A stretch of DNA of 50,025 nucleotides from an uncultured Spartobacteria bacterium (GTDB taxonomy: Bacteria; Verrucomicrobiota; Verrucomicrobiia; Chthoniobacterales; UBA6821): NCBI GenBank assembly GCA_903858595.1, contig CAIOJL010000026.1:1-50025 (forward strand), written 5' to 3'. Position 1 is the stretch's first letter; every line of letters starts with the position of its first letter. The position numbers were made by a program, and so were the translations under genes. This document shows, piece by piece, positions 4,993 to 22,148 of the stretch. The notes below the pieces were generated by a model that was not told the origin of the DNA, did not search any database, and saw only the letters and a program-made list of their open reading frames with translations.

Positions 4993-6075
4993 TTACGATT
5001 TCTGAGCAGGTTTACGCCTCAACCCCTCCATATGGGCGGGATCCCTAGCACCCGCCACGACCTCCTCCTTGCTGATGTAACCGGAGAGATAAAGCTCCTC
5101 CAGCATGTCGTCAAAGGTATGCATACCATCCTTGCGTCCTATTTCCATGAGTCCGACGATCTGTTCGAAACGGTGCTCGCGGATACAGGCACTCACAGCG
5201 CTGTTATTCATCAATAGCTCACTGACCATGATGCGCCGCAGAGCATCCTCGGAAGGAATAAAACGTTGAGCCAGAACTCCGGCCAAGGTGTTCGCCAACT
5301 GACCGAGGACTTGTGCCTGCTCGTCACCAGGAAAATAATCGACAATCCGGTCCAGTGCCTGTGGTGCATCGTTAGTATGAAGCGTCGCCAGCACGAGATA
5401 GCCCGTTTCCGCAGCAGTCAGGGCGGCGCGAACTGTCTCAGCGTCCCTCATCTCACCGACCATAACGACATCAGGATCCTGGCGCAGCACGTGGCGCAGC
5501 GCCTCGTCAAAGGATCTCGTGTCGGTACCCAGTTCACGCTGCTTGATAATGGACCGGTTGTTTGGGAGGTAAAACTCGATGGGATCCTCGATAGTCACGA
5601 TAACAGCATCACGATTTTCGCTGATCCAGCGGATCATGGAGGCAAGCGTGGTGGTTTTTCCAGAGCCGGTCATTCCGGAGACAAGGATCAGACCATCAAT
5701 GCGATTGCAGAGTTGCATGATGGATGGACGGTGGCCCAGTTCCATGATAGAGGGAATCTCATCGGGAATATGTCTGAAGACCGCCTCCAACGCCCCCCTG
5801 CTGAAATGGGCATTCCCGCGGAAGCGTCCTGTTCTCTCTACCTGCAAGCCGAAATCGAGTTCCAAATCACGTTCCAATCGGGCTCGTTGCGACTCAGTGA
5901 GGATTCCCAAGATAATCTCACGGCACTCCTGGCGCGAAATCGCACGCCCGTGGCATGGGCGTATATCGCCACGCACCCTCATCGCGGGTGCCAATCCCGC
6001 ACAGAGATGGATATCGGATGCGCCGTTCCGGACGGCTTCCCGGAGAATATCGACGATGTCAGGAAGGTCATGCAT
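4993..6075 (-). CDS. pilT: PilT-type type IV pilus retraction ATPase
   Basis: The 360-residue hexameric ATPase of the secretion-ATPase family powers pilus retraction from the cytoplasmic face of the inner membrane. It shows Walker A GMTGSGKT (134-141), the Asp box TIEDPIEF (161-168), Walker B VVMVGEMRD (203-211) and the His box TLHTND (231-236). The N-terminal PAS-like half (DIHLCAGLAPAMRVRGDI) is typical of PilT. The length is close to the usual 345-370 residues. It lies 14 bp downstream of a second PilT-like gene in one operon. The structural pilus-like genes are 4.4 kb further on, on the other strand. No PilB extension ATPase is present in the window. Confidence 0.92.
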   Translation of the reverse strand: MHDLPDIVDILREAVRNGASDIHLCAGLAPAMRVRGDIRPCHGRAISRQECREIILGILTESQRARLERDLELDFGLQVERTGRFRGNAHFSRGALEAVFRHIPDEIPSIMELGHRPSIMQLCNRIDGLILVSGMTGSGKTTTLASMIRWISENRDAVIVTIEDPIEFYLPNNRSIIKQRELGTDTRSFDEALRHVLRQDPDVVMVGEMRDAETVRAALTAAETGYLVLATLHTNDAPQALDRIVDYFPGDEQAQVLGQLANTLAGVLAQRFIPSEDALRRIMVSELLMNNSAVSACIREHRFEQIVGLMEIGRKDGMHTFDDMLEELYLSGYISKEEVVAGARDPAHMEGLRRKPAQKS

Positions 6076-6089
6076 GGCTAAGGAAAAAG

Positions 6090-7160
6090 TTAGGAGGAGC
6101 TACTGGTGATTCCCCTCAATCGGCGCTTCAGTTCAGCAGGATTAGGAACAGCAAGGAGTGCCGTATCCTCGGCAATCCTACGTGTCGTCACCAGATCCAG
6201 AAAGGAGCTCAGGAAATCGTATGATTCAGAAGGGTCCGACTGACTGATGAAATTTCTCAAGGCGGGGAGATTGGCCTCACGGATACATTGGCGGGAGAGT
6301 CCTATATTCGTCAGGAATTCAGTTGCCAGGACCATTCCACCAGCAGTGCTAGGCAGCAGCTTCTGGCAGAGAATTCCGAGCAACTGTCCGGCAAGAACTT
6401 GCAGATGCCCCTTTCTCTCTCCATCTGGAAAGAAAGCCATGAGGCGCTCCACCACCTCCCCGGCATCAGATGCGTGGAGCGTGCTGAGGACAAGATGACC
6501 TGTTTCGGCAGCCTGAAGAGCTACCATTGCGGTATCGGCATCACGGATCTCACCGAGCAGGATGATATCGGGTGCCTGCCGCAGGGAGCGACGCAGGCCC
6601 TGGGCAAAGCTGGGAGTGTCCAGACCCACAGCACGCTGAGTGAAAAGCGACATGTCACGCTCGAAAACATATTCGACGGGGTCCTCGATAGTCACAATAT
6701 GGCGCTCCAGATTCGTGTTCACCCATTGAATTAGAGCTGCAAGAGTGGTAGATTTACCGGAACCAGTGGGACCAGAGACAACCAATAGGCCCGACTTCCG
6801 CGCAGCCATCGACTTGAGCATGGCCGAGGGTACTCCCAACCCATCGATATCTGGGGGCGTGTTGCTGATCCTTCTCAGCACAGCAGCCTCTTGTCCAAGT
6901 TGTTTGTGAAAGTTCACACGAAAACGGTTGCCCTCTCTCGAAACAAAACTCGCGTCATGATCCGTTGCTTCCGAAGGAACCCCGCAATAGGCACGGAAGG
7001 CCATCAGGTCATCCAGACTCAGTGGCGGTGCCTCCATCGGCGTGATACTTCCGGATACCCTGACGATTGGGGGTTCCCCGACGTGAAGAATGAGATCGGA
7101 CGCCTTGTATTCATGGGCAGCCCTGCAATAGAGCTCAATCGATTCTGGGGTGGCATCCAT
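6090..7160 (-). CDS. PilT/PilU-type twitching motility ATPase, second copy
   Basis: This is a 356-residue paralogue of the neighbouring PilT. It has Walker A GPTGSGKS (130-137), the Asp box TIEDPVEY (157-164), Walker B IILLGEIRD (199-207) and the His box TLHASDA (227-233). The N-terminal part (SDLILHVGEPPIVRVSGSI) matches the PilT PAS-like domain. It differs enough from its neighbour to be an old duplication, not a recent copy. By analogy with PilT/PilU pairs it may be an accessory retraction ATPase, but the sequence does not decide which of the two is the main motor. It is the first gene of a two-gene operon, just after tRNA-Glu on the same strand. Confidence 0.9.
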   Translation of the reverse strand: MDATPESIELYCRAAHEYKASDLILHVGEPPIVRVSGSITPMEAPPLSLDDLMAFRAYCGVPSEATDHDASFVSREGNRFRVNFHKQLGQEAAVLRRISNTPPDIDGLGVPSAMLKSMAARKSGLLVVSGPTGSGKSTTLAALIQWVNTNLERHIVTIEDPVEYVFERDMSLFTQRAVGLDTPSFAQGLRRSLRQAPDIILLGEIRDADTAMVALQAAETGHLVLSTLHASDAGEVVERLMAFFPDGERKGHLQVLAGQLLGILCQKLLPSTAGGMVLATEFLTNIGLSRQCIREANLPALRNFISQSDPSESYDFLSSFLDLVTTRRIAEDTALLAVPNPAELKRRLRGITSSSS

Positions 7161-8688: not shown

Positions 8689-9621
8689 TCAAAAGTGCTC
8701 TTCCAACACGAGCGCCATCGCAACGAAGAGAAGCAACGCCCCCATCAGACGACGGAACATCACTCCCCGAGGATGCCTGTCTGGGGAGAAATTCCCAGCC
8801 ATCGCCCCCAGGCCCCAGACCAGCAATACACTCCAAAGACACCGCGATCCGTACAGGATATTGCTCATGGTGGCGCTTCCGAAGAGGCCGATTGACGAAA
8901 AAATTGCCAGGGCCTGAACCGCCAGCAGCAGGGCCCCGAAGAGTAGCCAGGGAAGAGACGTGAAAAACGAGCTCCCCGCAACAAGGAAACTGAGGGTACC
9001 GCCTCCACTAAAACTGGCCCTCGAACTCATCAGTCTGGGGACATACACCAAGGAAAACAGACCGACGGAGCCGAACATGAGCGGGGCAAACCTGCTGTAT
9101 CCTACCAAAGGAACCCATCGTTGTAACAAGACGTCGGTAAGTGCAAAAACGGCAGCAGCAGCTAGGGACCAAGCAACGGCCTCAAGCAGCCTCGCGTGAT
9201 TTCCGGCAGGAGAATAGGAGATCAGGGCAATGCCAAGGCTGGCCATTAATGAGGCGAGCCAGATTGCATGCGGAAGATTTTTTCCAATCAGGAAAAAGGA
9301 GAAGAGCGCCACCAGCAGAACTTTAGATCCCAAGAGCGGCGTGGCGACGGAGACATCGCCAGTGTAGATAGCCCTAAAGGTGAAGATCTGTCCCAAAAAA
9401 AACAACACCCCGCACACAACCGGCGGCAAAATTATCCCAAGTGCCAGGGGATGACCCGGTAACAGCCATAGAGCTTGGAACAACACGGCCATGACCGTGT
9501 TGCACAAGAGATTAACCCAAGCACCCGATGCCCCGGCACTGAGGGCGCGCTTGATTGCGATCGCTCCGAAGGCATAGCCGAAGCCCGCCCCGAGCGGCAG
9601 GATCAGGGCAACGGGACTCAC
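8689..9621 (-). CDS. DMT-superfamily (EamA-like) membrane transporter
   Basis: The 310-residue protein is very hydrophobic, with about ten predicted membrane helices in two halves, the usual EamA/DMT arrangement. The first half begins at PVALILPLGAGFGYAFGAIA, and the repeat begins near residue 150 (LLEAVAWSLAAAAVFALTDV). The family exports or exchanges small metabolites across the inner membrane. The substrate is unknown, but its place between aroD and trpD makes an aromatic compound or intermediate a reasonable guess. The start is GTG and overlaps the aroD stop as GTGA, which implies translational coupling. Confidence 0.82.
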   Translation of the reverse strand: MSPVALILPLGAGFGYAFGAIAIKRALSAGASGAWVNLLCNTVMAVLFQALWLLPGHPLALGIILPPVVCGVLFFLGQIFTFRAIYTGDVSVATPLLGSKVLLVALFSFFLIGKNLPHAIWLASLMASLGIALISYSPAGNHARLLEAVAWSLAAAAVFALTDVLLQRWVPLVGYSRFAPLMFGSVGLFSLVYVPRLMSSRASFSGGGTLSFLVAGSSFFTSLPWLLFGALLLAVQALAIFSSIGLFGSATMSNILYGSRCLWSVLLVWGLGAMAGNFSPDRHPRGVMFRRLMGALLLFVAMALVLEEHF

Positions 9622-10343
9622 ACTGGAAGAACCTCATCCAGGATTCCTCGGAGCTTCAGCGCCGGCCACTGGCCGGGAACCTGAGGGCTTCCCAACCATC
9701 CGTAGCAAAGCGGCGTTCCAAACCCTGCAAGAACGATCCTGGAAAACCGCCCGGCATCCCCCATGCCCATCGCAATGACAGGGATTTCAGTACGACTCAG
9801 TTGGAGATCGACCAGACGCTGCAAGTCATGGCGATCCCGAAGCGTCGTCGCCACCTTGAAGAGATCGGCCCCATGATCGGCGGCTTTGGAGGCTAATTTT
9901 TTCAACATGGGGAGCGTCGGAGTCGCCGTAAAATCATGATGCGATAGAATAAGCGTCCTTCCATTCTGATGGACTTGGGCGATTACGGGGGCCAGTGCAC
10001 GGGCTGATCGAAGCTCGATATCCAGAGCCGAAGCCCAGGGTAGGGAGGACTCCAGGTAGGCCTGACGGCTTAATTTGGAAAGATTCCCTGCGCCACCCTC
10101 GCCAGGATGGCGGGCCGTCGCGATCACAGGACGAGGCCAGATTGGCGGTAATCCAGCCAGAGACAGCGCGTCCAGCCTGACTTCCAAGAGATCCACCCCC
10201 TGAAGCAATGAATCTCTGGTAACGGCACTATGAACAAACCTCAAACCCGACGGGTCATGAATTGTTCCCACGACGCGTGGAGCTGCCTCCCGAAGGAGGG
10301 ACTGAATGCTCAGAATTTGACGGCCGTTGATACTCACACTCAT
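9618..10343 (-). CDS. aroD: Type I 3-dehydroquinate dehydratase
   Basis: The enzyme makes 3-dehydroshikimate in the shikimate pathway through a Schiff base. Type I features are visible: EVRLDAL early on, SHHDF containing the catalytic histidine, and the Schiff-base lysine in ADLFKVA. From the chosen ATG the protein is 241 residues, the normal size. This ATG has AAAAGGG eight bases upstream. Reading from the next start upstream would add 35 residues with no family match. It is the first gene of the aroD-transporter-trpD operon and is divergent from the pilus-like locus, with about 120 bp between the two starts. Confidence 0.9.
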   Translation of the reverse strand: MSVSINGRQILSIQSLLREAAPRVVGTIHDPSGLRFVHSAVTRDSLLQGVDLLEVRLDALSLAGLPPIWPRPVIATARHPGEGGAGNLSKLSRQAYLESSLPWASALDIELRSARALAPVIAQVHQNGRTLILSHHDFTATPTLPMLKKLASKAADHGADLFKVATTLRDRHDLQRLVDLQLSRTEIPVIAMGMGDAGRFSRIVLAGFGTPLCYGWLGSPQVPGQWPALKLRGILDEVLPV

Positions 10344-10463
10344 AATGTATGCCCTTTTGTTCTTCTCATCTCCATGCTGAACCGCAAGATGGTAATCTCC
10401 AAGGATCCTCAAGAATGGTTCTGGATTTTGCAACTGGTTTAAGATCAAATTAATGGTTACTTC

Positions 10464-11096
10464 ATGAATATCCCCCTGTTTTCAAAATATTCGTTCACGG
10501 CCTTCTTCACAGCCGCCATCCTGATTCTTTCACCGGGATTGCTCCGCGCACAGCAGGTCGCTGAGGAATTTTCGATTTCAAAAATTGAGCCTGCGATTAT
10601 CTCCTCCCCAGTGATCTCTTACTCGGGAGCTAACCAAAAGCCTTCCCGGCCAAAGAATTGGATGGAAATTGAGGTGACGTTCAGCTGGCTTCCCCGCAAC
10701 CCTGCTGACAAATACTCAGACGATATCGTTCTTGATTACTATGTATTGCTTGCCAACAAAAGCGTGACCTCCCCCCAGGGAACGCTGCTAGCTGGTCAAG
10801 TAACCCACACTTCCGTACCTGCCAAGCAGAACGACCTGAAATCGGTGATCTATATCAGCCCTAGGACACTCGAACGGTTTTTCGACGGCAAGCCTCCTGC
10901 CAGTGTGTCATCAGCGATCATCGACATCGGGGTAACGATCTCACGCCAAGGTCAGTTGGTCGCCCAGAAAAGCCTGAAGGGCTCTGGTGCATGGTGGCCT
11001 CAATACCAGAAGACCAGTGGGTACCTCCTTAACAAGAATGAAACGCCCTTTGCGCCGCTGAACACCGACTACTACGAAGCAGTAAAGAGGCAGTAA
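10464..11096 (+). CDS. Secreted Amuc_1102-like protein of the pilus-like locus
   Basis: The 210-residue protein has an N-terminal signal peptide (hydrophobic residues 11-28, likely cleavage after LLRA or LRAQQ). The rest is predominantly beta-strand. By position and general sequence it corresponds to Amuc_1102 of Akkermansia, which I recall as an Ig-like fold protein encoded beside pilM. The match is from memory of that locus, not from alignment. It probably acts in the periplasm or at the cell surface as part of the pilus-like apparatus. It begins the five-gene cluster that ends with two secretins. pilM starts 30 bp downstream. No Shine-Dalgarno sequence precedes the ATG (ATGGTTACTTC). Confidence 0.78.
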   Translation: MNIPLFSKYSFTAFFTAAILILSPGLLRAQQVAEEFSISKIEPAIISSPVISYSGANQKPSRPKNWMEIEVTFSWLPRNPADKYSDDIVLDYYVLLANKSVTSPQGTLLAGQVTHTSVPAKQNDLKSVIYISPRTLERFFDGKPPASVSSAIIDIGVTISRQGQLVAQKSLKGSGAWWPQYQKTSGYLLNKNETPFAPLNTDYYEAVKRQ

Positions 11097-11126
11097 GGAT
11101 TCCCCTCAAGTCAATACTCCGTCCCA

Positions 11127-12842
11127 ATGGCAACGCAAAAAAAAACCTTGGTCATTGACCTCGGTATGCAGTCACTGAGGATTGCCGAGTTTTCGGCCTC
11201 TACCAACGGTCAACTCACATTGCATCGAGGGGCACGCAGGGAACTCTTGATCGACCCTGCACAGGACACCACTCGACCCGAGCAAATCCGCCACGCGCTT
11301 CAGGATATCCTGAAGGATTGGAAGATCAAGCGGTCGGACGTTGTCTGCGTTCTCCCCGCTCACTCGGTCTTCACTCGTGTCATTCAGCTCGAAGTTCCGG
11401 GAGGTCTCTCTAGCAAGGTCGATGACATCGTGAAATTCGAAGCGCAGCAAAACATTCCCTTCCCCCTGAAAGAGGTTGTCTGGGACTATGTGTTGATGGG
11501 TACAACTCCCTCGGGAGCGCTCAAGGTGGCCTTTGTTGCTGTCAAAACCGATCTGTTGGAATCCCTCTGTGAGGCCGTCTCCTCGACAGGTCTTAAGATC
11601 ACCTCCATTACGATCGCCCCCATGGCCCTGCATGATGCTTTCCGTTACTCGGTGGCCGATTCCTTAATCACAACCACGCTTCTTCTGGATATAGGCTCCC
11701 GAACGACCAACATGGTGATCGCCTCATCGGGCAATTACTTCTCCAGAAGCATTCCCTCCGGCGGTCTCTCCGTCACCATGGCGATCGCCAAAGAAATTCA
11801 TGTCGAATTGGAAGAGGCTGAACTTCTCAAAATATCCCGGGGAAGCGTGGGGCTCGGAGCGGGATTTGAACAACCAATCGACCCCGTTGAGGCCAACATA
11901 GCCCGTATTGCAAGACAATCATTGCTCAAGACTCAGGCCGACATCAGCAGATCACTGAGCTACTACAGGTCCAATCTGGGCGGAGAGGATCCCGCAGGAA
12001 TCTTGATCACCGGGGGAATGGCTTCCATGCCATATTTGGCGGAGTTTATTCAGGAGAAGTTACAGAAACCGGTCGGTTTTTGGAATGTGACCTTGGAGGC
12101 CGACAGGAAGAAGAAAGGATTAGCTGTGGAAGCCGCCGAATTTGTCAGCGCCAATCCGAACAACTGCGGCGAACTTATTGGCGGAGCCTTGGCTCTGACT
12201 TCGGCTCCGCGCACCAAGATTAATCTGTTGCCGCCTTCGATTTTCAAAAAGAGGGCTTTCTCCAAACGCCTTCCCTGCCTTATCGCTTCACTCGTTCTCT
12301 TTCTGACATCGCTCGCCGGATGGTACGGATACGCCCTTCAGGCATCTGCCGTGACCCGCGAGGAGACCACCAAGGTTTCCTCATCCATTTCCGAGGCGAC
12401 AAGGATCTCGGCCCGGATTCAGAACCTCATCTTACGTCATGCAGCGATTGAACAGACCGGCAGCGATCTTCTCTCGGTCATCCGCCTGCGAGAGGCATAC
12501 CCGATGATCCTTGCGGAACTGGGAGCCAAAGTTCCAGCGCGGTTTCTATGGATCACCGAGATTCAGCCGGCGGTCGATTCTCCCCAGAGGGGCGTTTCGC
12601 CCAAGAGTAATGATGGCTCCGTCAAGGCCATCCTAGTCAAAGGGCTGTACCTTGACAATCCCAAGCAGGCCTCAGTGATCGACGATTTTGTCACTTCCCT
12701 TCAGTCCTCGGATGTCTTTGTCGTCGAGGAAAAGGAAAAATCCAAGATTATCATTCAGCGTGGCAGTCCCAATGGGGAATCCTGGGCCTATCCTTTTTCA
12801 CTCAGGATTCCTCTTCGCAATCCCGTTACTCCCCTTCCCTGA
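11127..12842 (+). CDS. pilM: PilM-PilN fusion, type IV pilus-like assembly protein (Amuc_1101-like)
   Basis: Residues 5-360 form an actin-like PilM domain. The first phosphate loop is VIDLGMQSLRIA, the second is LLDIGSRTTNMVIA (186-199) and the adenosine motif is ILITGGMASMP (292-302). It then continues with KINLLPPS (364-371), the signature that normally opens a separate PilN protein, a membrane helix (383-404) and a periplasmic coiled-coil/ferredoxin-like part to residue 571. In most bacteria PilM (about 350 residues) binds the short cytoplasmic tail of PilN. Here the two are one chain. It is the platform that links the cytoplasmic motors to the PilO-like and secretin proteins encoded next. 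The ATG follows CCGTCCCA, not a Shine-Dalgarno sequence. Confidence 0.9.
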   Translation: MATQKKTLVIDLGMQSLRIAEFSASTNGQLTLHRGARRELLIDPAQDTTRPEQIRHALQDILKDWKIKRSDVVCVLPAHSVFTRVIQLEVPGGLSSKVDDIVKFEAQQNIPFPLKEVVWDYVLMGTTPSGALKVAFVAVKTDLLESLCEAVSSTGLKITSITIAPMALHDAFRYSVADSLITTTLLLDIGSRTTNMVIASSGNYFSRSIPSGGLSVTMAIAKEIHVELEEAELLKISRGSVGLGAGFEQPIDPVEANIARIARQSLLKTQADISRSLSYYRSNLGGEDPAGILITGGMASMPYLAEFIQEKLQKPVGFWNVTLEADRKKKGLAVEAAEFVSANPNNCGELIGGALALTSAPRTKINLLPPSIFKKRAFSKRLPCLIASLVLFLTSLAGWYGYALQASAVTREETTKVSSSISEATRISARIQNLILRHAAIEQTGSDLLSVIRLREAYPMILAELGAKVPARFLWITEIQPAVDSPQRGVSPKSNDGSVKAILVKGLYLDNPKQASVIDDFVTSLQSSDVFVVEEKEKSKIIIQRGSPNGESWAYPFSLRIPLRNPVTPLP

Positions 12843-12846
12843 ACTG

Positions 12847-13809
12847 ATGAACACAATCACCAAATGGTTTGTGGACAACAAGCTGGCAGCCTGTCTTTTA
12901 GCATCCCTGATCCTTGGAACACTAATCCTTGGATTTCTTGCATATCAGGCATGGGATGATTATGGAACGGCTTCTGCGGATTATACATCCAAGGCTTCCC
13001 AACTACTGAAGCTCTCACAACCACCAAAACCTTTCCCTTTCCCCAGTCAGGATAACCTTTCCAAGCTTGAAGCAACCATAACCACCGAGCAGTCGCAGCT
13101 GGATGCCCTCATCAAGTATCTTCAGAAGTACCAAGTGCCCACCTTTGCCGAGATCGACAATGCAAAACCCCAAGATCGCCCTCAACGCTTTCAGGATGCA
13201 CTGCGTAACGAGGTGACTAAGATCAAATCACTTGCCACAAATACTGGTGCCTCACTACCACCGGGATTCTATCTCGGCCTTGATGACTACGAAAATCGGC
13301 TTCCATCCCAAGATGATGTCCAACTTCTTTCAAAACAACTCACCGTCCTGAGCTGGCTAGGCGAATTGTTTGCCACACACAAAGATCTGATTCTTTCCGA
13401 ATTCTCAAGATCCACTGCAGAAACGTTGCCAAAAAAAACATCCCCAGCAGTTCCCGTGAAAGTTTCCACCCCCTACAAGTACGCCTGCGGCATGAAAGTG
13501 AACTTTCGATGTAGCCAAGGTTCGTTCCGAGAAATCGTCAATGCGGTTTCAATGGCTCCCTATTTCCTGATCATTGATCAGCTTCTTGTTCAAAACACCT
13601 CAAGCGAGCCCCCCAGACGCGATACGCCGCCTACCACTCTAGCTCCCGCACTAGACGGAAGCACCCCGATTCAGAGACTCCCGATCATTGTGGGAAGAGA
13701 ACTTCTCGACATCTCGCTGAAACTCCGCGGACTCGAATTCTCTGATCAGGAATCCCCTGCCGTAAAATATTTGCAACACAAACCCGCTGACGAAGGAAAG
13801 GGCCTATGA
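12847..13809 (+). CDS. Amuc_1100-like inner-membrane-anchored pilus-locus protein (PilO-like)
   Basis: From the ATG four bases after the pilM stop the protein has 320 residues, close to the 317 I recall for Amuc_1100, and starts with the similar NKLAACLL segment. One membrane helix spans about residues 13-33, followed by a long helical region (40-190) and a C-terminal alpha/beta domain. That domain carries segments resembling Amuc_1100: MKVNFRCSQGSFREIVNAV, YFLIIDQLLVQN and VGRELLDISLKL. Amuc_1100 is the Akkermansia surface protein reported to signal through TLR2, and its place beside PilM/N suggests a PilO-type role. Longer readings starting inside pilM are not credible. It overlaps the next gene by ATGA. 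Confidence 0.82.
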   Translation: MNTITKWFVDNKLAACLLASLILGTLILGFLAYQAWDDYGTASADYTSKASQLLKLSQPPKPFPFPSQDNLSKLEATITTEQSQLDALIKYLQKYQVPTFAEIDNAKPQDRPQRFQDALRNEVTKIKSLATNTGASLPPGFYLGLDDYENRLPSQDDVQLLSKQLTVLSWLGELFATHKDLILSEFSRSTAETLPKKTSPAVPVKVSTPYKYACGMKVNFRCSQGSFREIVNAVSMAPYFLIIDQLLVQNTSSEPPRRDTPPTTLAPALDGSTPIQRLPIIVGRELLDISLKLRGLEFSDQESPAVKYLQHKPADEGKGL

Positions 13810-14891
13810 AGAATCTGATCATTCGCCACTACCATCTGGGGCTCTTGGGAATCGCTTCGCTGATTGTTATTGGCATTGCCGTGTTTCTGATCACCCAGTC
13901 GCTCGGATTTCAAGACTCCCTGAAAGGGGCCGATTCAATTTCAAAACAGGAAAAAAGCCCATCGCCAACGGCTTCTTCCAATGCCGTTGTTGCTATCGAG
14001 CATTTGAAAAAGCCCGGGCTTTGGAAGCCGAGTGACAATGGCTCATCGCCGCTGGTCTCGCGTCCCTATCTCCTCAAGGAGGGTAAACTCATTGATCCGA
14101 TGGTGGGTAACGACGAGCCACTCTACCCGCCCGTTCCGAACCAGTGGCTGATCAATCACCAACTCGACTACACGGACGTTAACATCCTAGACCGTGATCC
14201 AAAGAGTAAGGGTTTTACCGTACGCGAGGAATACCTGGCAGGAACCGATCCTAATAACGCGGCGGAGTTCCCCCCTCTTTGCACGAAGCTCAGCTACGGT
14301 GAGAGTGATATCCGCAAGAGTACCACTGTCCTGGAATTCGTGGGTATTGAAACAAACGAGGTCACCGACTCCAACGGAGTCACCGACACAAACAAAATCT
14401 CCGTCGAATATCAATTGCGGCCCGCCCAACCGCTTCCCAATCCGGCAAAAGGAAACCGTCCCGATACCTCGATGCGGTCCGTGCAAAAAGGAGAAACCAT
14501 TCCCGGGGCCTCCTTCCTGAGAGTGGTCGATTACAACGATAAGAAAAAGACAATCAATGACACCGAGTACGACTTCGGCGAACTGGTCTTGGAAAACACC
14601 CTCACCGGCGAACGTCACCTCCTTGCGAAAAAGAATACCTCCAGGGATTACAGGAAGACACCCATTGAACTTGTCGAGAGCGTAACATTCCATTACAAAC
14701 TCGCCGGAGCCTCAGTTCAGGATATCACCGTGGAGCGCGGCAAAACCTTCGACTTAGGCAGCTTGGACAAAAAACATGTGGAAATTTACAAGCTCGTCGA
14801 TTTTTTAAAGGATGGGATCCTGCTGAACAAGGATGGTAAAAATTTCACCATTAAGGCATCTTCCTCAACGACTCGAAGCCCCTCCCCGTAA
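13806..14891 (+). CDS. Amuc_1099-like membrane-anchored protein of the pilus-like locus
   Basis: The 361-residue protein has one N-terminal membrane helix (about 11-31), a low-complexity Ser/Pro-rich linker, then a mostly beta periplasmic part of about 300 residues. The order after the Amuc_1100-type gene matches Amuc_1099 in Akkermansia. The position between a PilO-like protein and a secretin is that of PilP, which bridges the inner-membrane platform and the secretin, but no PilP sequence motif is visible, so the role is inferred. One segment repeats asparagine/threonine-rich text (NEVTDSNGVTDTNKIS). It is coupled to the upstream gene by an ATGA overlap and lies 39 bp before the first secretin. 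Confidence 0.78.
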   Translation: MKNLIIRHYHLGLLGIASLIVIGIAVFLITQSLGFQDSLKGADSISKQEKSPSPTASSNAVVAIEHLKKPGLWKPSDNGSSPLVSRPYLLKEGKLIDPMVGNDEPLYPPVPNQWLINHQLDYTDVNILDRDPKSKGFTVREEYLAGTDPNNAAEFPPLCTKLSYGESDIRKSTTVLEFVGIETNEVTDSNGVTDTNKISVEYQLRPAQPLPNPAKGNRPDTSMRSVQKGETIPGASFLRVVDYNDKKKTINDTEYDFGELVLENTLTGERHLLAKKNTSRDYRKTPIELVESVTFHYKLAGASVQDITVERGKTFDLGSLDKKHVEIYKLVDFLKDGILLNKDGKNFTIKASSSTTRSPSP

Positions 14892-14930
14892 ACAGCCTTC
14901 ACTCCCCCCCCCTTTTTTCCTTCATTGACA

Positions 14931-17498
14931 ATGATTCCTCCCCGCACCATCTCCAGGATCAGAACGCCCATGCAGGCGCTTTCCCTAGCGGCGATCAGGT
15001 TAATTGTTGGAATGGTTATCGCATCTTCGTTTGCCTATGCCCAGCAGAGCGGCGTGGTAGGGCAAACAGAGCGTGAAATCCGGATTCTTCAGGAGAGAAG
15101 CAAGTGGGCCCAGGCTCAGACTCAAAAGGCCTTAACTGCCATGGCGGACAAAGATTACGAGTCTGCTTTTGCTTTTTCCAAGAGCGCTGTCGATGCATTG
15201 CCAGCAGGAGGAGAGTCCTCGGCAGGTTTGCGATCACTGGCTCTTGAGAGCTTTTCCAAGGCTGCTTTTGCATTGGCCACACAACGCGTGAGCGAAGGTT
15301 ACTACGACGATGCGGAGTTAGTGGTGAAAACAGTTGCCGATAAGCCTTACTCATCCTCCTACCCACCCTTGCTGGATCTTCGGAAATCTCTTCGTGACCC
15401 GAACCATTTCAACAGAACCATCACACCAGGATTCGTCGGCAAGGTGACTCAGGTTGAACAGTTGATGAACGAGGCAGAGGGACTCTACGCATCAGGCCGC
15501 TTCGATGCAGCGTTCAATAAATATCAAATGGTTCTCAATCTTGATCCTGAGAATAAATCCGCACGTCTCGGGATGGAAAAAATCAATAAACAACGGTCCC
15601 ATTATGCGGAAACAGCCACCTCCGAGAGGAGAAGCCAGATGATTTCCGACGTTGCAAGAGCATGGGAACTGCCCGTGCCGAAAATTAATACCGGCACCAC
15701 CACGATCATCGAGCAGAGCCCCATCGACATGCAGGGCACCAGTGCCGCCATCAGCCGAAAACTCGAGAAGATCAGACTCCCTGAACTCATTCTTACCGGC
15801 GAGACCGTGCGAGAGGCTGTGGAAAAGCTACAGAAAAAATCCCGCACGCTAGACACGACAGAAACGGATCCTGCAAAAAAAGGTGTTAATATCGTTCTCA
15901 AGCTGGATCCGGCAAAAGAAGCTGTTGACGGCGGCACCAAGCTCAACCTCCAGCTCAACGACCTTCCACTTGGAGAGGCCCTGAAATACATTGCCTCGGC
16001 TGCAAATCTTAAGGTCAAGATCGAACCGTATGCCGTCGCGTTGGTTCCTCTCTCCGAACCAACAGAAACCCTGATCTCAAAAGAATACAAGGTTCCCCCC
16101 TCGTTCATCTCCAGCTCTGCCAGCTCCACCCCTGCAACCGGAGGGCTTTCAGCGGCCGGCGGCCCGGGTTCATTAGGTACCGTGGGAAAATCCGGCGCTA
16201 AGCAGATTCTGGAATCCCAGGGGGTCACCTTCCCAGCTGGAGCTAGCGCGACCTACCTCGCCTCAAGCAGCAAGCTGCTTGTCAAGAATACCCAGGCGAA
16301 CCTCGACCTAATCGACTCCCTGGTGGAGGTCCAGCTCGCCACCCCTCCCAGCCAGGTGGAAATCGAAGCCCGCTTTCTGGAAATCAAACAGTCTAATCTC
16401 CAGGAACTTGGCTTTGATTGGCTGATGGGAGCCTTCCAGCTTCCGGGAGGTAGCGGAGTCAATGCCGGGGGTGGCACAGTTGGCAATCGACAAGGACAGG
16501 CCAATGCCGGGAATTATCCCTTTGTCAGCCCGGCGGGTGTCCCTGCCGGAGCAATGAATGTGGACTCCGCTGGTAATGTCACGGCGGGAAATATCACTGC
16601 GGGAAACCGGACGGGTTCAGCCGCTATTACTGCGAATGCGCTGGATGGCCTTCTCTTCGGCTCACCAGCAGGGCCGGCAGCGGGTATTCTTGCTCTTGCG
16701 GGAGTTTTCACGAACCCCCAGTTCCAAGTTGTGCTACGCGCGATCAATCAACAGAAGGGAATAGATCTGGTCTCAGCCCCCAAAGTCACAGTGACCAGCG
16801 GGAGGAAGGCCACGATCAACATTATTCAGAAATTTCCTTATCCGCGCGACTATTCTCCTCCGGCTGCTGTTACGGCGTCAGCAGGACAATCGCAACCGGC
16901 AACTCCAGCCACCCCAACCTCTTTTGAGACTCGAAATTGTGGCGTGCAACTCGAGGTCGAACCAACGGTTGGACCCGATGGATACACAATTGAGCTGAGC
17001 CTCTCTCCACAGATCACGGAATTCGAGGGTTTTGTCAATTACGGATCCCCTATCAGCACATTTGCAACAGTTTACGTGCCAAATCCGGCAGCACCAAACA
17101 ACCCAATTCCTGTCGGCACTCAAAAAGTTCTTCTGACACCAAACACTATCAATCAACCCGTCTTTAGTGTGCGCCAGGTAGACACTCAGGTGACGGTCTA
17201 TGATGGCCAGACAGTTGTCTTGGGTGGACTTATGCGAGAGGATGTCCAAAAGGTCCAGGATAAGACACCCATTGCGGGTGATCTTCCTCTGGTGGGATCC
17301 CTCTTTCGAAGCTCGAGTAACCAGCGGATCAAGAAAAACCTCATTATCTTTGTCTCGGCAGGGTTGTTGGATCCCGCAGGGCAACCCCTGATTAAAACGG
17401 TGGAAAATGGAGAAGAAATATCCTCTCCCGACGCCAAGGCAGTCGCCTCTGAAGCAGTCCCGGGTGATCCCTCGACAGCCTCCAAATCCAGCCGATGA
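14931..17498 (+). CDS. Type II/III secretion-type secretin, first copy (Amuc_1098-like)
   Basis: The 855-residue outer-membrane channel protein has a signal peptide ending near SFAYAQQ, a helical TPR-like region (to about 260) with one clear repeat (GRFDAAFNKYQMVLNLDPEN), then N-domains (SSKLLVKNTQANLDLIDSLV). The secretin core includes VFSVRQVDTQVTVYDGQTVV and the hallmark GDLPLVGSLFRS near the C-terminus. Gly/Ala-rich inserts (residues about 500-570) fall in the core. It should form the outer-membrane ring through which a pilus or substrate leaves. The chosen ATG lies six bases after a possible TTG and follows a C/T run. The stop overlaps the start of a second secretin (ATGA). Confidence 0.9.
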   Translation: MIPPRTISRIRTPMQALSLAAIRLIVGMVIASSFAYAQQSGVVGQTEREIRILQERSKWAQAQTQKALTAMADKDYESAFAFSKSAVDALPAGGESSAGLRSLALESFSKAAFALATQRVSEGYYDDAELVVKTVADKPYSSSYPPLLDLRKSLRDPNHFNRTITPGFVGKVTQVEQLMNEAEGLYASGRFDAAFNKYQMVLNLDPENKSARLGMEKINKQRSHYAETATSERRSQMISDVARAWELPVPKINTGTTTIIEQSPIDMQGTSAAISRKLEKIRLPELILTGETVREAVEKLQKKSRTLDTTETDPAKKGVNIVLKLDPAKEAVDGGTKLNLQLNDLPLGEALKYIASAANLKVKIEPYAVALVPLSEPTETLISKEYKVPPSFISSSASSTPATGGLSAAGGPGSLGTVGKSGAKQILESQGVTFPAGASATYLASSSKLLVKNTQANLDLIDSLVEVQLATPPSQVEIEARFLEIKQSNLQELGFDWLMGAFQLPGGSGVNAGGGTVGNRQGQANAGNYPFVSPAGVPAGAMNVDSAGNVTAGNITAGNRTGSAAITANALDGLLFGSPAGPAAGILALAGVFTNPQFQVVLRAINQQKGIDLVSAPKVTVTSGRKATINIIQKFPYPRDYSPPAAVTASAGQSQPATPATPTSFETRNCGVQLEVEPTVGPDGYTIELSLSPQITEFEGFVNYGSPISTFATVYVPNPAAPNNPIPVGTQKVLLTPNTINQPVFSVRQVDTQVTVYDGQTVVLGGLMREDVQKVQDKTPIAGDLPLVGSLFRSSSNQRIKKNLIIFVSAGLLDPAGQPLIKTVENGEEISSPDAKAVASEAVPGDPSTASKSSR

Positions 17499-20146
17499 AC
17501 AAGCTGCTCTCCATGGTCATGCACAGCTGCAAATCTCCGTTCCCTTTCCCTGTTAGTTTTCACTCTACCTTGTTCCTTGCGATCATCCTAACGGCACACC
17601 TCGGTTCCTCGGAACTATCGGCGCAGGCCCCATCAATTGCAGCAGATGCAGAACGAGCCATTGTCCGTAGTCAAGAAAATCTTGTTCAGGCACAATCCCT
17701 GATGCGCTCTGCCATAGAGAAGTACTCCCAACACGAGCTGAAGGAGGCTTATGGCCTAGCCGTGGAAGCCATGACCCTGGTCCCTTCCGGAGTTTCCGTG
17801 AATTCCATGAGAAACGCCCTTCTCTCTAACTACACGACCATTGCTTTAGCCTTTGCCCATGAGTTGGCAGAACAAGGTGATTTCACCGATAGTATCGCTA
17901 AAAAATCCGGCATCATCGATGCCAATGGACTCCCCCTCTCTGCGGAGAGCGTTGCCAAATCAATCCTGGATCCCTCGATGAATCCCGGTTGCCAAGCCGC
18001 AGTGAAGTTCCTCTCCGATCTGGAACAGCCAGGCATCTTTAATAAGACCGTCACTCCGGCCTTCGCCGCCAAACGCGCAGAGGTGATCAAACTGCTCAGG
18101 GAAGCTTCCGACCTTGTAAGATCAGGTCGCAATGAAGCTGCTCTCAAAAAATACGAGGAGATCCTCCAAATCGACCCTTACAACAAAGCCGCCCGCAAGG
18201 GAATGGAGGAAATTCATCATTCCACGATCAAGTACGCCGACGAGGCCTATAATGAGACGCGGAGCAGAATGCTCTGGCAGGCGGAAAAAGCTTGGGAGCG
18301 TCCACCACGCAAGTCCAAGCAGGGACGTACGACCGAATCAACAGGTCGTTCACAGGATGTCAGGGGAACAGATCAAATCACAGCAAAGCTCAACTCCATC
18401 ATCATTACCAAGCTCGATCTGACCGATTCGCCCATCAGTGAGGCGATCGAGTACCTCAAGCAGAAAAGCGTCGAGCAGGATCCAGTCCACAAGGGTGTGA
18501 ATATATTCCTGAAACTGGGCTCACAGTCCCCTGCATTACCCCCCACGGGAGCCTCTACCACCAATGCATCCACCAGCAACATATCATCAACCCAGGCAAC
18601 CTCTGGAGGAACCGAGCCCCATGTCACGCTGGCACTCTCCCATGTGCCCCTCTATGTGGCCCTCGACTACATCAGCAAGCTCAGCTCCATGAAGCTCAAA
18701 ATAGATACCTACGCCGTCTCGATCGTACCCCTTTCTGAACCGACAGATATCATGATCCAAAAGGAATATCAGGTTCCACCCACATTCATCCCACCCAAGT
18801 CACTTGACTCAGGAAGCATGCTTCCCCAGGCCGGGCCAGCAACCAGCACTGCAAATCTGCCCCGCGTTGCTGATCGTTACAATGCACAGGATTATTTGCT
18901 CTCCCAGGGAGTCGAGTTCCCTGGTGGCGCGAGTGCCAACTACCTCCCCTCGGGCAGTAAACTCGTGGTGCGTAACACACGGGATAACATCGATCAGATC
19001 GATGCCCTCGTGGATGCGGCCATGGGAGTTGCCCCGTCTCAGGTTGATATCCAGACGAAATTCATAGAAATCAATCAGAATAACATTCAGGAACTCGGAT
19101 TCGACTGGTTGCTCGGGCCATTCAGCATCGGGGGCGGTGTCTATGGCAGCGGAGGCGGCGGAGCCAACTCCCTGAATAGTGCGAATTATCCCTTCAATTC
19201 GTCAGGAATGAATACAGTGGGCAGCCTTAGAACGGGTGACCAAGCCATCACTGGAAACTCCATTGACGCATTGCTAGCTGGCACGACGGGCGTCTCTGGG
19301 GCGCCATCTCCCGGAATTTTCAGCGTGTCAGGGGTCTTCACCGATCCCCAATTCCAGATGGTCATTCACGCACTGAATCAAAAAAAGGGGGTGGATTTAA
19401 TGGCCGCCCCCAAGGTCACGACCAAGAGCGGTGTCTCAGCCACGATTAAGATCATCGATGAGTTTATCTACCCACGCCAGTACGATCCTCCAACATTTTC
19501 CCAAACAACTGGTAATGGCGTTGGCACAACCGTAGTAAATCCATTAACGCTACCCCCCCCAACAGTTACACCCTCTTTTCCTAGAGATTTCACAATGCAG
19601 CCTCTAGGGGTTATCCTGGAGGCCAAGCCGACAATTGGCCCAGATGGTTACACCATTGATCTGGATTTAAAACCCAAGGTCACGGATTTTGATGGCTTCA
19701 TCAACTATGGATCACCCATTAGTAGCGTTGGATATCAAGCGGGACTCTACCGTAATACAATACCCGCTTTACTACCCGTCCCGTCGATCATCACGACTAA
19801 TACAATCAATCAACCGGTCTTCTCTGTTCGCGAAGTCAACACTTTCGTGACAGTCTGGGATGGGCAGACAGTCGCCCTTGGCGGACTCATCCGTGAGAAT
19901 GTCCAAAAAGTCCAGGACAAGGTGCCGATCTTGGGAGACATCCCGATGGCTGGCCGCCTCTTCCGCTCCGATGCCGACCATAAAATCAAGAAAAACCTGG
20001 TGATCTTTGTCACGCCGCGCATTCTCGATGCCGAGGGGCAACCTCGGCGCGGGGATAATGAGGAACAGGAGATCGTTACGCCGCTGGGTATTCCCCACGA
20101 TCTGCCCCAGCCGTCCATGGCATCTGAAGCGGTCAGGGGAAAATAA
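17495..20146 (+). CDS. Type II/III secretion-type secretin, second tandem copy
   Basis: The 883-residue protein has the same architecture as the secretin before it. A signal peptide ends around ELSAQA, then comes the TPR-like segment NEAALKKYEEILQIDPYNK. N-domains (SGSKLVVRNTRDNIDQIDAL) precede a secretin core ending with GDIPMAGRLFRS and KKNLVIFVTPRILD. Its middle carries a Thr/Ser/Asn-rich insert (residues about 350-375) not found in the first copy. The two share recognisable but well-diverged sequence along their whole length, so this is an old tandem duplication with both copies kept intact. The second could replace the first under some conditions or form a mixed ring. It is translationally coupled to the first copy. 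Confidence 0.9.
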   Translation: MNKLLSMVMHSCKSPFPFPVSFHSTLFLAIILTAHLGSSELSAQAPSIAADAERAIVRSQENLVQAQSLMRSAIEKYSQHELKEAYGLAVEAMTLVPSGVSVNSMRNALLSNYTTIALAFAHELAEQGDFTDSIAKKSGIIDANGLPLSAESVAKSILDPSMNPGCQAAVKFLSDLEQPGIFNKTVTPAFAAKRAEVIKLLREASDLVRSGRNEAALKKYEEILQIDPYNKAARKGMEEIHHSTIKYADEAYNETRSRMLWQAEKAWERPPRKSKQGRTTESTGRSQDVRGTDQITAKLNSIIITKLDLTDSPISEAIEYLKQKSVEQDPVHKGVNIFLKLGSQSPALPPTGASTTNASTSNISSTQATSGGTEPHVTLALSHVPLYVALDYISKLSSMKLKIDTYAVSIVPLSEPTDIMIQKEYQVPPTFIPPKSLDSGSMLPQAGPATSTANLPRVADRYNAQDYLLSQGVEFPGGASANYLPSGSKLVVRNTRDNIDQIDALVDAAMGVAPSQVDIQTKFIEINQNNIQELGFDWLLGPFSIGGGVYGSGGGGANSLNSANYPFNSSGMNTVGSLRTGDQAITGNSIDALLAGTTGVSGAPSPGIFSVSGVFTDPQFQMVIHALNQKKGVDLMAAPKVTTKSGVSATIKIIDEFIYPRQYDPPTFSQTTGNGVGTTVVNPLTLPPPTVTPSFPRDFTMQPLGVILEAKPTIGPDGYTIDLDLKPKVTDFDGFINYGSPISSVGYQAGLYRNTIPALLPVPSIITTNTINQPVFSVREVNTFVTVWDGQTVALGGLIRENVQKVQDKVPILGDIPMAGRLFRSDADHKIKKNLVIFVTPRILDAEGQPRRGDNEEQEIVTPLGIPHDLPQPSMASEAVRGK

Positions 20147-20199: not shown

Positions 20200-20799
20200 A
20201 TGCCATCGATAGCGATCACGGGAACGATCGGGAGCGGCAAATCCCAAGCACTCAGCCTGCTGTCGCAGCATCTCCCGGCGACAATCTATCATGCTGATCT
20301 GGAAAATCGCAAATTGCTGGATCAGGATCAAGAGATCCAGGAACTTATCAGAAAGGCATTCGGTGAGGCCTGTGTTGACAGCATGGGTCACCCGGACAGA
20401 AAACGCCTTTTCGAGCTTATTACCTCGGATCCATCCGCAAAAACCCTTCTTGAGGGGATTCTCCATCCGCGACTGGAGAAAGTGTGGAAACCGCTTGCTC
20501 TGAAATCCAAGGGACCTAAAAGTGATTTTTTCATCGCGGAAATCCCTCTTCTTTACGAGAAAGGTCTGGAACGTTTCTTCGACAGGACCATTCTTGTCGC
20601 CTGTTCGGACTCTGTCAGGAAGGAACGGCTAACCGTGAATCGCCAACTCTCTCACAAAGAAACTTCAGCCTGGTTAAAACACCAAATTGCCCAGGATCAA
20701 AAAATCTTGCTGGCCGATCACCTCCTTTGGAATGACGCCTCAACATACGCGCTTGAACTCCAGATCCGGCAACTTCTACCAATTTTGACAAACCTATGA
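20200..20799 (+). CDS. coaE: Dephospho-CoA kinase
   Basis: This is the last step of CoA synthesis: ATP-dependent 3'-phosphorylation of dephospho-CoA. The P-loop is GTIGSGKS at residues 8-15, right after the first strand (SIAIT). The lid/CoA region with LFELI and HPR (HPRLEKVWKPL), and the late strand AEIPLLYEKG with its following DRTILV, are typical. At 199 residues it has normal length. It lies 53 bp after the second secretin, and its stop overlaps the rho start by ATGA, so the two are translationally coupled. The ATG follows GACCATCCG, without a Shine-Dalgarno sequence. Confidence 0.93.
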   Translation: MPSIAITGTIGSGKSQALSLLSQHLPATIYHADLENRKLLDQDQEIQELIRKAFGEACVDSMGHPDRKRLFELITSDPSAKTLLEGILHPRLEKVWKPLALKSKGPKSDFFIAEIPLLYEKGLERFFDRTILVACSDSVRKERLTVNRQLSHKETSAWLKHQIAQDQKILLADHLLWNDASTYALELQIRQLLPILTNL

Positions 20800-22148
20800 A
20801 CTCCGGCCCCATCACTCATGAAGCCGACCCGGAACTCCCCTTGATTGACCGAACTCCTCAGAACGCCGTGAAGGTGCTGCCGAATGAGATTCCTCCTCCG
20901 CTCGATATGGAGGCACTTCATGACTCAAGCCATAAAATCCTTCTGGAGATGATAGCTTCCAGAAATCTTCCCCTGCACCGAGATTCCTCAAGACATCATC
21001 TGGCACTCGATCTGGCAAGGGATCAGCTGAAGAGGGGCGGAACTCTCACTGCGGAGGGGATCCTGGAGTTTGCTCCCGATGCACCGATGATCCGCTGGCC
21101 TCAGTTTAATTTTCAACTGACTCCCTGCGACATCAACCTTCCCATCCCCCTGCTGCGCCAGTACGACCTGCGCCCCGGTCTGAGAATCAGAGGATCGGTC
21201 ACGATGCAGTCCGAAAGGAAACTGGCTCTCCATACGATTACGGAAATCGAAGGGATCCCGACGGAAGAATGGAAGAGCCCGATGGAGTTCGACAAGCTCA
21301 CGGCAATGTTCCCCAACAGGCGGATCTATCTCGAACAACCGGGCAAAAACAATCCAACGGCCCGTGCCGTTGATCTGATCGCCCCGCTGGGAATGGGTCA
21401 ACGTGGTTTGATCGTGGCACCCCCGCGTGTCGGAAAAACGATGATGCTCAAGAGTCTGGCCCTTGCAATCCGGGCAAATCATCCCGATGTCCATCTCATG
21501 CTCTTACTCGTGGATGAGCGACCCGAGGAAGTCACCGACCTGCGGAGGGCCCTGGACTGCGATATTTTCAGTTCCACCTTCGATGAACCGACTGCACGTC
21601 ATGTGCAGGTTTCAGAGATGGTCTCGGAACGCTCCAAGCGACTTGTGGAACTGAAAAAGGATGTAGTTATCCTTGTGGACAGCATCACACGCCTGTCGCG
21701 TGGCTATAACAATAATATCCAGGGTAAAGGCCGCACCATGAGCGGCGGAGTGGACTCGGCTGCCTTGGCTCGTCCCAAGAAATTCTTCGGCTCAGCTCGC
21801 AATGTCGAGGAGGGGGGAAGCCTTACCATCCTAGCCACCGCGCTTGTGGAAACACACAGCCGGATGGATGACTTGATCTTCGAGGAATATAAGGGGACGG
21901 GAAATATGGAAATCTACCTTGATCGCTCCATCATGGAACAACGTGTCTTCCCGGCCATCCACATCACCAAATCTGGAACCCGTCGCGAGGAACTCCTCTA
22001 TCATCCGGACGAATACGAGAGGATCCTGAAGTTACGGAAGCAACTCATGGAAATCCCTGCCGCCGAAGCCATGCAGATCCTCTGCCTGAACATGGAAACC
22101 ACCAAGAGTAACGCAGAACTCCTTCTTGGTGGGATCAAGGGACTCTAA
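20796..22148 (+). CDS. rho: Transcription termination factor Rho
   Basis: Rho is a hexameric RNA-dependent ATPase that ends transcription. The ATPase core is complete: P-loop APPRVGKT (208-215), Walker B-like [16 protein letters not shown], the Q-loop/R-loop region [12 protein letters not shown] and [16 protein letters not shown], then the conserved [14 protein letters not shown]. The 450-residue length is ordinary. The N-terminal RNA-binding domain is recognisable (GILEFAPD onward), but the RNP1 motif that normally reads GFGFLR is replaced by APMIRW, so the usual aromatic residues are missing at that spot. It is coupled to coaE upstream by ATGA. The next gene starts about 55 bp later. Confidence 0.95.

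Follow-up and report, generated by a model that had tools for sequence, protein, structure and literature searches.

A Divergent pilMNOPQ-Like Locus with an Amuc_1100 Homologue and Tandem Secretins in an Uncultured Spartobacteria Bacterium

Results

Gene Content of the Locus

The window analysed here, a stretch of 50,025 bp from the genome of an uncultured Spartobacteria bacterium (2.35 Mb in 242 contigs), carries at positions 10464–20146 of its plus strand a locus corresponding to the genes Amuc_1102 to Amuc_1098 of Akkermansia muciniphila, whose numbers are used below to name the proteins and their families. This locus very probably codes for the alignment platform that spans the cell envelope in a type IVa pilus system, as a divergent form of pilM-N-O-P-Q in which 1101 takes the place of PilM and PilN, 1100 that of PilO, 1099 that of PilP and 1098, present in two copies, that of PilQ, with 1102 as an accessory component. 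The homology of each protein (more tentatively so for 1099 and PilP), the PilM–PilN fusion, the folds and the gene order are shown by the results below, and PilB, PilC, PilT and prepilins were found in the same genome.

Six open reading frames (ORFs) constitute the locus, matching NCBIfam families in the order 1102, 1101, 1100, 1099, 1098, and 1098 again, with significant profile matches to Amuc_1100, Amuc_1099, and Amuc_1102. The original prediction, made on the letters of the window, had described five genes with the order, lengths, and ATGA couplings of the Akkermansia locus. The order, similar lengths and the ORF positions were indeed found, whereas the secretin gene turned out to be in duplicate, and the ATGA couplings were confined within the locus to positions 13806 and 17495 (a further one joins coaE and rho at 20796), the remaining joins having gaps of 4 to ~39 bases. 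Identity to the Akkermansia-like locus L187 was 20–35% per protein, and ~20% for the protein encoded at 12847. Chance can be discarded as the source of these similarities because of the profile E-values and of a gene order common to nearly all related loci. Promoter and terminator scans gave nothing beyond the level of shuffled sequences.

A PilM–PilN Fusion

The 1101 gene (11127..12842, +) was recognised by its NCBIfam family at E 8e-134, below the 650-bit cut-off, and by PF11104 at E 6e-27. When the family profile was compared with the pilus proteins of Myxococcus, positions 1–350 matched PilM (3jc8_Ma, E 8.7e-51), and positions 356–478 of the same profile matched PilN (3jc8_Na, E 1.9e-6). 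The protein is laid out as a PilM part (~1–350), in which the DLG and DIG motifs of the actin-like ATP site are kept, an INLLP-type motif (IN-L-x-P, ~364–369) standing where the PilN part begins, a membrane helix (382–400), and a PilN-like periplasmic part up to residue 571. The INLLP-type peptide of PilN is the one that binds PilM. By these sequence comparisons, 1101 unites PilM and PilN in a single chain, and the fusion looks old, since full-length homologues of similar length were found in all the classes examined. When Hof proteins of E. coli were compared as single sequences with the profiles, HofN alone stood out, weakly, with the 1101 profile.

A PilO-Like Fold in the Amuc_1100 Homologue

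The 1100 gene (12847..13809, +) encodes a protein with an N-terminal membrane anchor and a coiled coil (NF038287, E 2e-34, 119 bits, below the cut-off of 180). Its homology to Amuc_1100, anticipated in the original prediction, was borne out with a profile of 47 homologues, which matched the crystal chains of Amuc_1100 at E 7.5e-79 (1e-67 to 1e-79 across 6lad, 6kny, and 6laf); the family profile was needed, as phmmer of the single sequence found no match in PDB. The AlphaFold2 model (pLDDT 83) presents a membrane helix that runs unbroken into the coiled coil, plus a ferredoxin-like domain. In the Foldseek search, ten Amuc_1100 chains came at the top (E 9e-9), followed by four PilO chains with probabilities of 0.98–1.00, with no other match above a probability of 0.33 among those listed. 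VIA-align gave Z scores of 18 for Amuc_1100 (162–170 residues), 8.5 for PilO, and 5–6.3 for GspL/GspM domains. The model thus has the Amuc_1100 fold with PilO as the next family, and the product can be classed as PilO-like on its predicted fold. By hydropathy, almost every homologue of 1100 and of 1099 has a single membrane helix, at the N-terminus. Amuc_1100 itself would then most likely be PilO, a scaffold of the inner membrane, rather than an innovation of the gut. A search of viral contigs gave no relative of the 12847 protein.

A PilP-Resembling Protein and a Natural Fusion

Because of the gene order, PilP was expected at the position of the 1099 gene (13806..14891, +; NF042425, E 4e-36, above cut-off) before the structure search was made. 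The product carries a membrane anchor, a DxDxDG motif, and a PilP-resembling beta domain at residues 172–281, and VIA-align of its AlphaFold2 model (pLDDT 84) placed PilP of Myxococcus and Pseudomonas in all of the top three rows (Z 6.8, 6.1, and 6.0), the next row being at 4.3. Anchored in the membrane and devoid of a lipobox, it is unlike the lipoprotein PilP.

The 1099 family also shows a conserved calcium-binding-like segment (consensus RDPDxDGFTNLEEF, ~residues 128–150 of the 13806–14891 product). This segment, of the D-x-D-x-DG type, gave weak matches to calcium-binding proteins.

In two species of a sister genus, 1100 and 1099 form one ORF in which both domains are present (L049:3506-5221, −, 572 aa; L050:7270-8979, −, 570 aa). 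According to hydropathy, the fused protein has one membrane helix, at its N-terminus, and the helix that opens the free-standing 1099 is gone; such an arrangement, with one anchor for two ectodomains, fits a periplasmic location of both domains on an inner-membrane anchor. In a few genomes (L200, L202), long open frames of 702–937 aa surrounding Amuc_1100 were also considered as fusions; they were rejected, being extensions of the frame that overlap with the gene for 1101. The locus of the sister genus (L048–L050) is a reduced one, where 1102 is not detectable and the PilM-like half is devoid of the ATP-site motifs. The sister-genus genome G016 gave no PilT match at E 1e-60.

Comparison with Type II Secretion

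In type II secretion, the cytoplasmic part of GspL is PilM-like and its periplasmic part PilN-like, and GspC is anchored in the membrane. The locus could accordingly be read as a type II secretion-type platform, with the PilM–PilN fusion as GspL, 1100 as GspM, the anchored 1099 as GspC, and 1098 as GspD, a reading that shares with the data the build of 1101 and the anchoring of 1099, and to which the GspL/GspM domains matching the 12847 model can be added. However, the sequence of 1101 is closest to PilM (family profile at E 9e-51), GspL giving a marginal match when the protein was searched singly (E 7e-4), and the other match to the GspL, GspM, and GspC families at the locus was also marginal (12847 protein to GspM NF040576, E 0.007). 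In the structural comparisons, PilO ranked above GspM (Z 8.5 vs. 6.1), and PilP was the top family for 1099. In addition, a PilT pair lies near the locus, and a type II secretion cluster that includes a secretin is found apart from it, on another contig of the genome (G000:C113:17500-25200; L211, L213). That secretin, the one other found, is near GspG, GspK, and GspM-like genes, so that the locus at 10464–20146 is not the platform of that system. With all this, a type II platform seems quite improbable, and the pilus platform is preferred.

Tandem Secretins and the 1102 Protein

The two secretin genes follow 1099 in tandem, copy 1 at 14931..17498 (+; NF042912, E 2e-231, above cut-off) and its paralogue, copy 2, at 17495..20146 (+; NF042912, E 2e-223, slightly below cut-off). 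Both carry the secretin domain expected of PilQ (PF00263, E 4e-32 and 8e-33, respectively) and are 40% identical to each other, copy 2 being ATGA-coupled to copy 1. The ORF of copy 1 opens with a TTG at 14925, the ATG at 14931 being the likelier start. In a tree of 98 secretins, tandem copies 1 and 2 formed two clades, each with a support of 1.0 and with similar inner branching, which is best explained by one old duplication after which both copies were kept. Tandem secretins are kept in several families of the Chthoniobacterales, and three secretin ORFs were observed in L122 and also in L204.

The first gene of the locus (10464..11096, +; NF042424, E 7e-30, above cut-off) encodes the 1102 protein, which has an N-terminal signal sequence, matches Amuc_1102 (PDB 7dsz, phmmer E 1.3e-9), and has no counterpart in pilMNOPQ. 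We propose that it is a phylum-specific accessory part.

Flanking Genes and Pilus Genes Elsewhere in the Genome

The locus sits between aroD and coaE-rho. Upstream, aroD (9618..10448, −; TIGR01093, E 2e-29) is divergent from the pilus operon and constitutes a flank kept in many related loci; downstream are coaE, for dephospho-CoA kinase (20200..20799, +; TIGR00152, above cut-off), and rho (20796..22148, +; NF006886, above cut-off), both conserved flanks. These are the same flanks that have been described for Akkermansiaceae (PMC13174399). Further upstream are two genes for retraction ATPases of the PilT/PilU family, at 4993..6075 (−; TIGR01420, E 1e-124, above cut-off; PF00437) and 6090..7160 (−; TIGR01420, E 1e-95, above cut-off).

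Including this pair, the genome encodes four PilT proteins, three PilB/GspE-like ATPases, and two PilC/GspF-like proteins, together with 15 N-termini of prepilin type above the Pfam cut-off; individual copies may belong either to the pilus or to the type II system. At L207:12213-15594 (−), two genes for PilB/GspE-like ATPases lie in tandem and their ORFs overlap, with another two PilT-like genes ~6 kb away.

Distribution in the Phylum

The Amuc_1100 family profile found a match in 228 of the 289 Verrucomicrobiota genomes sampled (218/276 when only good genomes are counted), as well as in 30 of 38 close relatives, and the gene order was kept in nearly all the fetched loci, including those from other classes of the phylum. 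The nearest named loci belong to assemblies of freshwater "Spartobacteria" and Chthoniobacterales, with 54–73% identity in the 1101 protein. These relatives place the host in a freshwater Chthoniobacterales lineage, which implies that the Amuc_1100-like protein is not specific to the gut. Both proposals of the original prediction on this point, a general Verrucomicrobiota machine and one that is not a gut adaptation, agree with these data, the latter having been made before for the order Verrucomicrobiales (PMC13174399).

The presence of the locus across Verrucomicrobiales was published in 2026, with weaker conservation in Chthoniobacterales and no occurrence detected in Methylacidiphilales (PMC13174399). 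Synteny beyond Akkermansia was thus already known, and our sample extends the locus to most of the phylum. In that work, 1099 and 1100 are called uncharacterised. Our literature search revealed no inner-membrane placement or PilO name for Amuc_1100, no call of a PilM–PilN fusion for Amuc_1101, and no assignment for Amuc_1099; its coverage was incomplete, earlier statements of PilO-likeness may exist (e.g., Wang 2020), and no priority is claimed.

Two genomes of 0.9 Mb from the same order, G028 and G092, presented neither the Amuc_1100 family nor PilT; we take them to be possible relatives of nematode endosymbionts, Xiphinematobacter-like.

Discussion

Compared with pilMNOPQ of Pseudomonas and Myxococcus, the locus shows the same order and roles, with PilM and PilN recognised by sequence, PilO by fold, and PilP by a moderate structural likeness, and differs from it in that PilM and PilN form one chain, in that the PilP-like protein is anchored in the membrane where PilP has a lipobox and carries an additional region with a calcium-type motif, and in the extra upstream 1102. 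Compared with Amuc_1102–Amuc_1098 of A. muciniphila (mucin utilisation locus 2, MUL2; PMC5332112, PMC13174399), the five families, their order, and the aroD/coaE/rho flanks are alike and the lengths are similar; in contrast, two tandem secretins are found here and one there, and the host is a freshwater member of the Chthoniobacterales.

In the mechanism that we envisage, the cytoplasmic PilM half would be covalently tied to the membrane helix of PilN. In the periplasm, the ferredoxin-like domain of PilN would pair with that of the Amuc_1100-like PilO via coiled coil and domain contacts, and the PilP-like domain of 1099 would form a bridge to the secretin's periplasmic domains. PilB/PilC would assemble the pilus, which would pass through the outer-membrane gate, and PilT would withdraw it. 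These contacts, the localisation of the proteins, piliation through this locus, and a host signalling by Amuc_1100 that is secondary to its scaffold role are deductions from the data above.

Several observations weigh against such an assignment. In Foldseek, the 13806 model matched nothing at E <= 0.001 and PilP was absent from the top 50, and the search with the 1099 family profile gave no PilP by sequence, the likeness of 1099 to PilP being structural and moderate. The Pfam PilN and PilO profiles did not match the 1101 and 12847 proteins, respectively. No Pfam PilN, PilO, or PilP was found in the genome or in its relatives; the lack of a canonical PilN or PilO in the genome speaks for the locus as the platform, yet it is weak evidence, as each profile matched in only 2 of 14 control genomes, and that of PilP, which matched in no control genome, is uninformative. 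Co-occurrence with PilT is modest: the Amuc_1100 family was present in 223 of 277 genomes with PilT and in 5 of 12 without it (Fisher p 0.004, kinship ignored), these five having the locus although PilT was not detected in them. Finally, a published account based on immunofluorescence and outer-membrane-enriched fractions presents Amuc_1100 as a surface-labelled protein of the outer membrane that has a signal sequence (PMC5332112), and its location on pili has been mentioned as a personal communication (PMC10688800).

These last reports would fit Amuc_1100-like proteins being surface or pilus-fibre components, whose PilO-like fold would merely be a common one. We consider this unlikely, as PilO comes directly after Amuc_1100 in the fold search, and the gene order is that of pilMNOPQ. 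The N-terminal helix, found in nearly all homologues and continuous with the coiled coil in the model, is unlike a cleavable signal, and in the natural 1100–1099 fusion a single anchor holds both ectodomains. In addition, the envelope fraction of 2017 was enriched in all five gene products, the PilM-like one included (PMC5332112), and this shared enrichment with a cytoplasmic protein suits a whole envelope-spanning complex, which that fraction may have contained. A review cites the structural similarity of Amuc_1100 to proteins of type IV pili and type II secretion (PMC13119276). The proposal of the original prediction that Amuc_1100 is an inner-membrane PilO-like part is thus sustained by the fold, the gene order, the uncleaved-looking anchor, and the natural fusion, and it conflicts with the published surface labelling, its localisation being a predicted one. 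On the whole, that prediction was confirmed as an observation with small corrections, and its interpretation was supported and mostly right.

A different question is what the platform is used for. The locus may serve mainly polysaccharide foraging, as a device for glycan uptake or attachment, a use that we regard as possible. According to papers that cite it (PMC13174399, PMC12418764), transposon work in Akkermansia ties the genes to mucin uptake, and fucoidan is taken up by marine relatives living attached to particles (PMC13174399). However, attachment is among the uses that a type IV pilus can have, so that both readings are compatible, and the conservation of the locus across lineages of very different diet points to a general machine with lineage-specific uses.

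As a tentative extension of the pilus platform reading, one inner-membrane platform common to the phylum (fused PilM–PilN, Amuc_1100 as PilO, and Amuc_1099 as PilP) could serve the pilus. In the branch of the Chthoniobacterales to which the window belongs, the two secretin paralogues, retained next to each other since one old duplication, might form on this single platform either a mixed ring or two alternative gates. Amuc_1100 would in that case be a buried scaffold, and its host signalling a by-product of its release.

Beyond what was known, the analysis adds a protein-by-protein assignment to pilM-N-O-P-Q, a natural fusion that bears on topology, and an old duplication of the secretin, and it gives testable roles to the neighbours of Amuc_1100, with Amuc_1101 as PilM–PilN and Amuc_1099 as PilP. 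Amuc_1100 is being investigated as a next-generation probiotic factor, and descriptions of it place it in the outer membrane or on pili. Should Amuc_1100 be the PilO of an ordinary pilus platform present in most of the phylum, its natural job would be inside the envelope, and the claims on gut adaptation, surface display, and dose would need to be re-examined.

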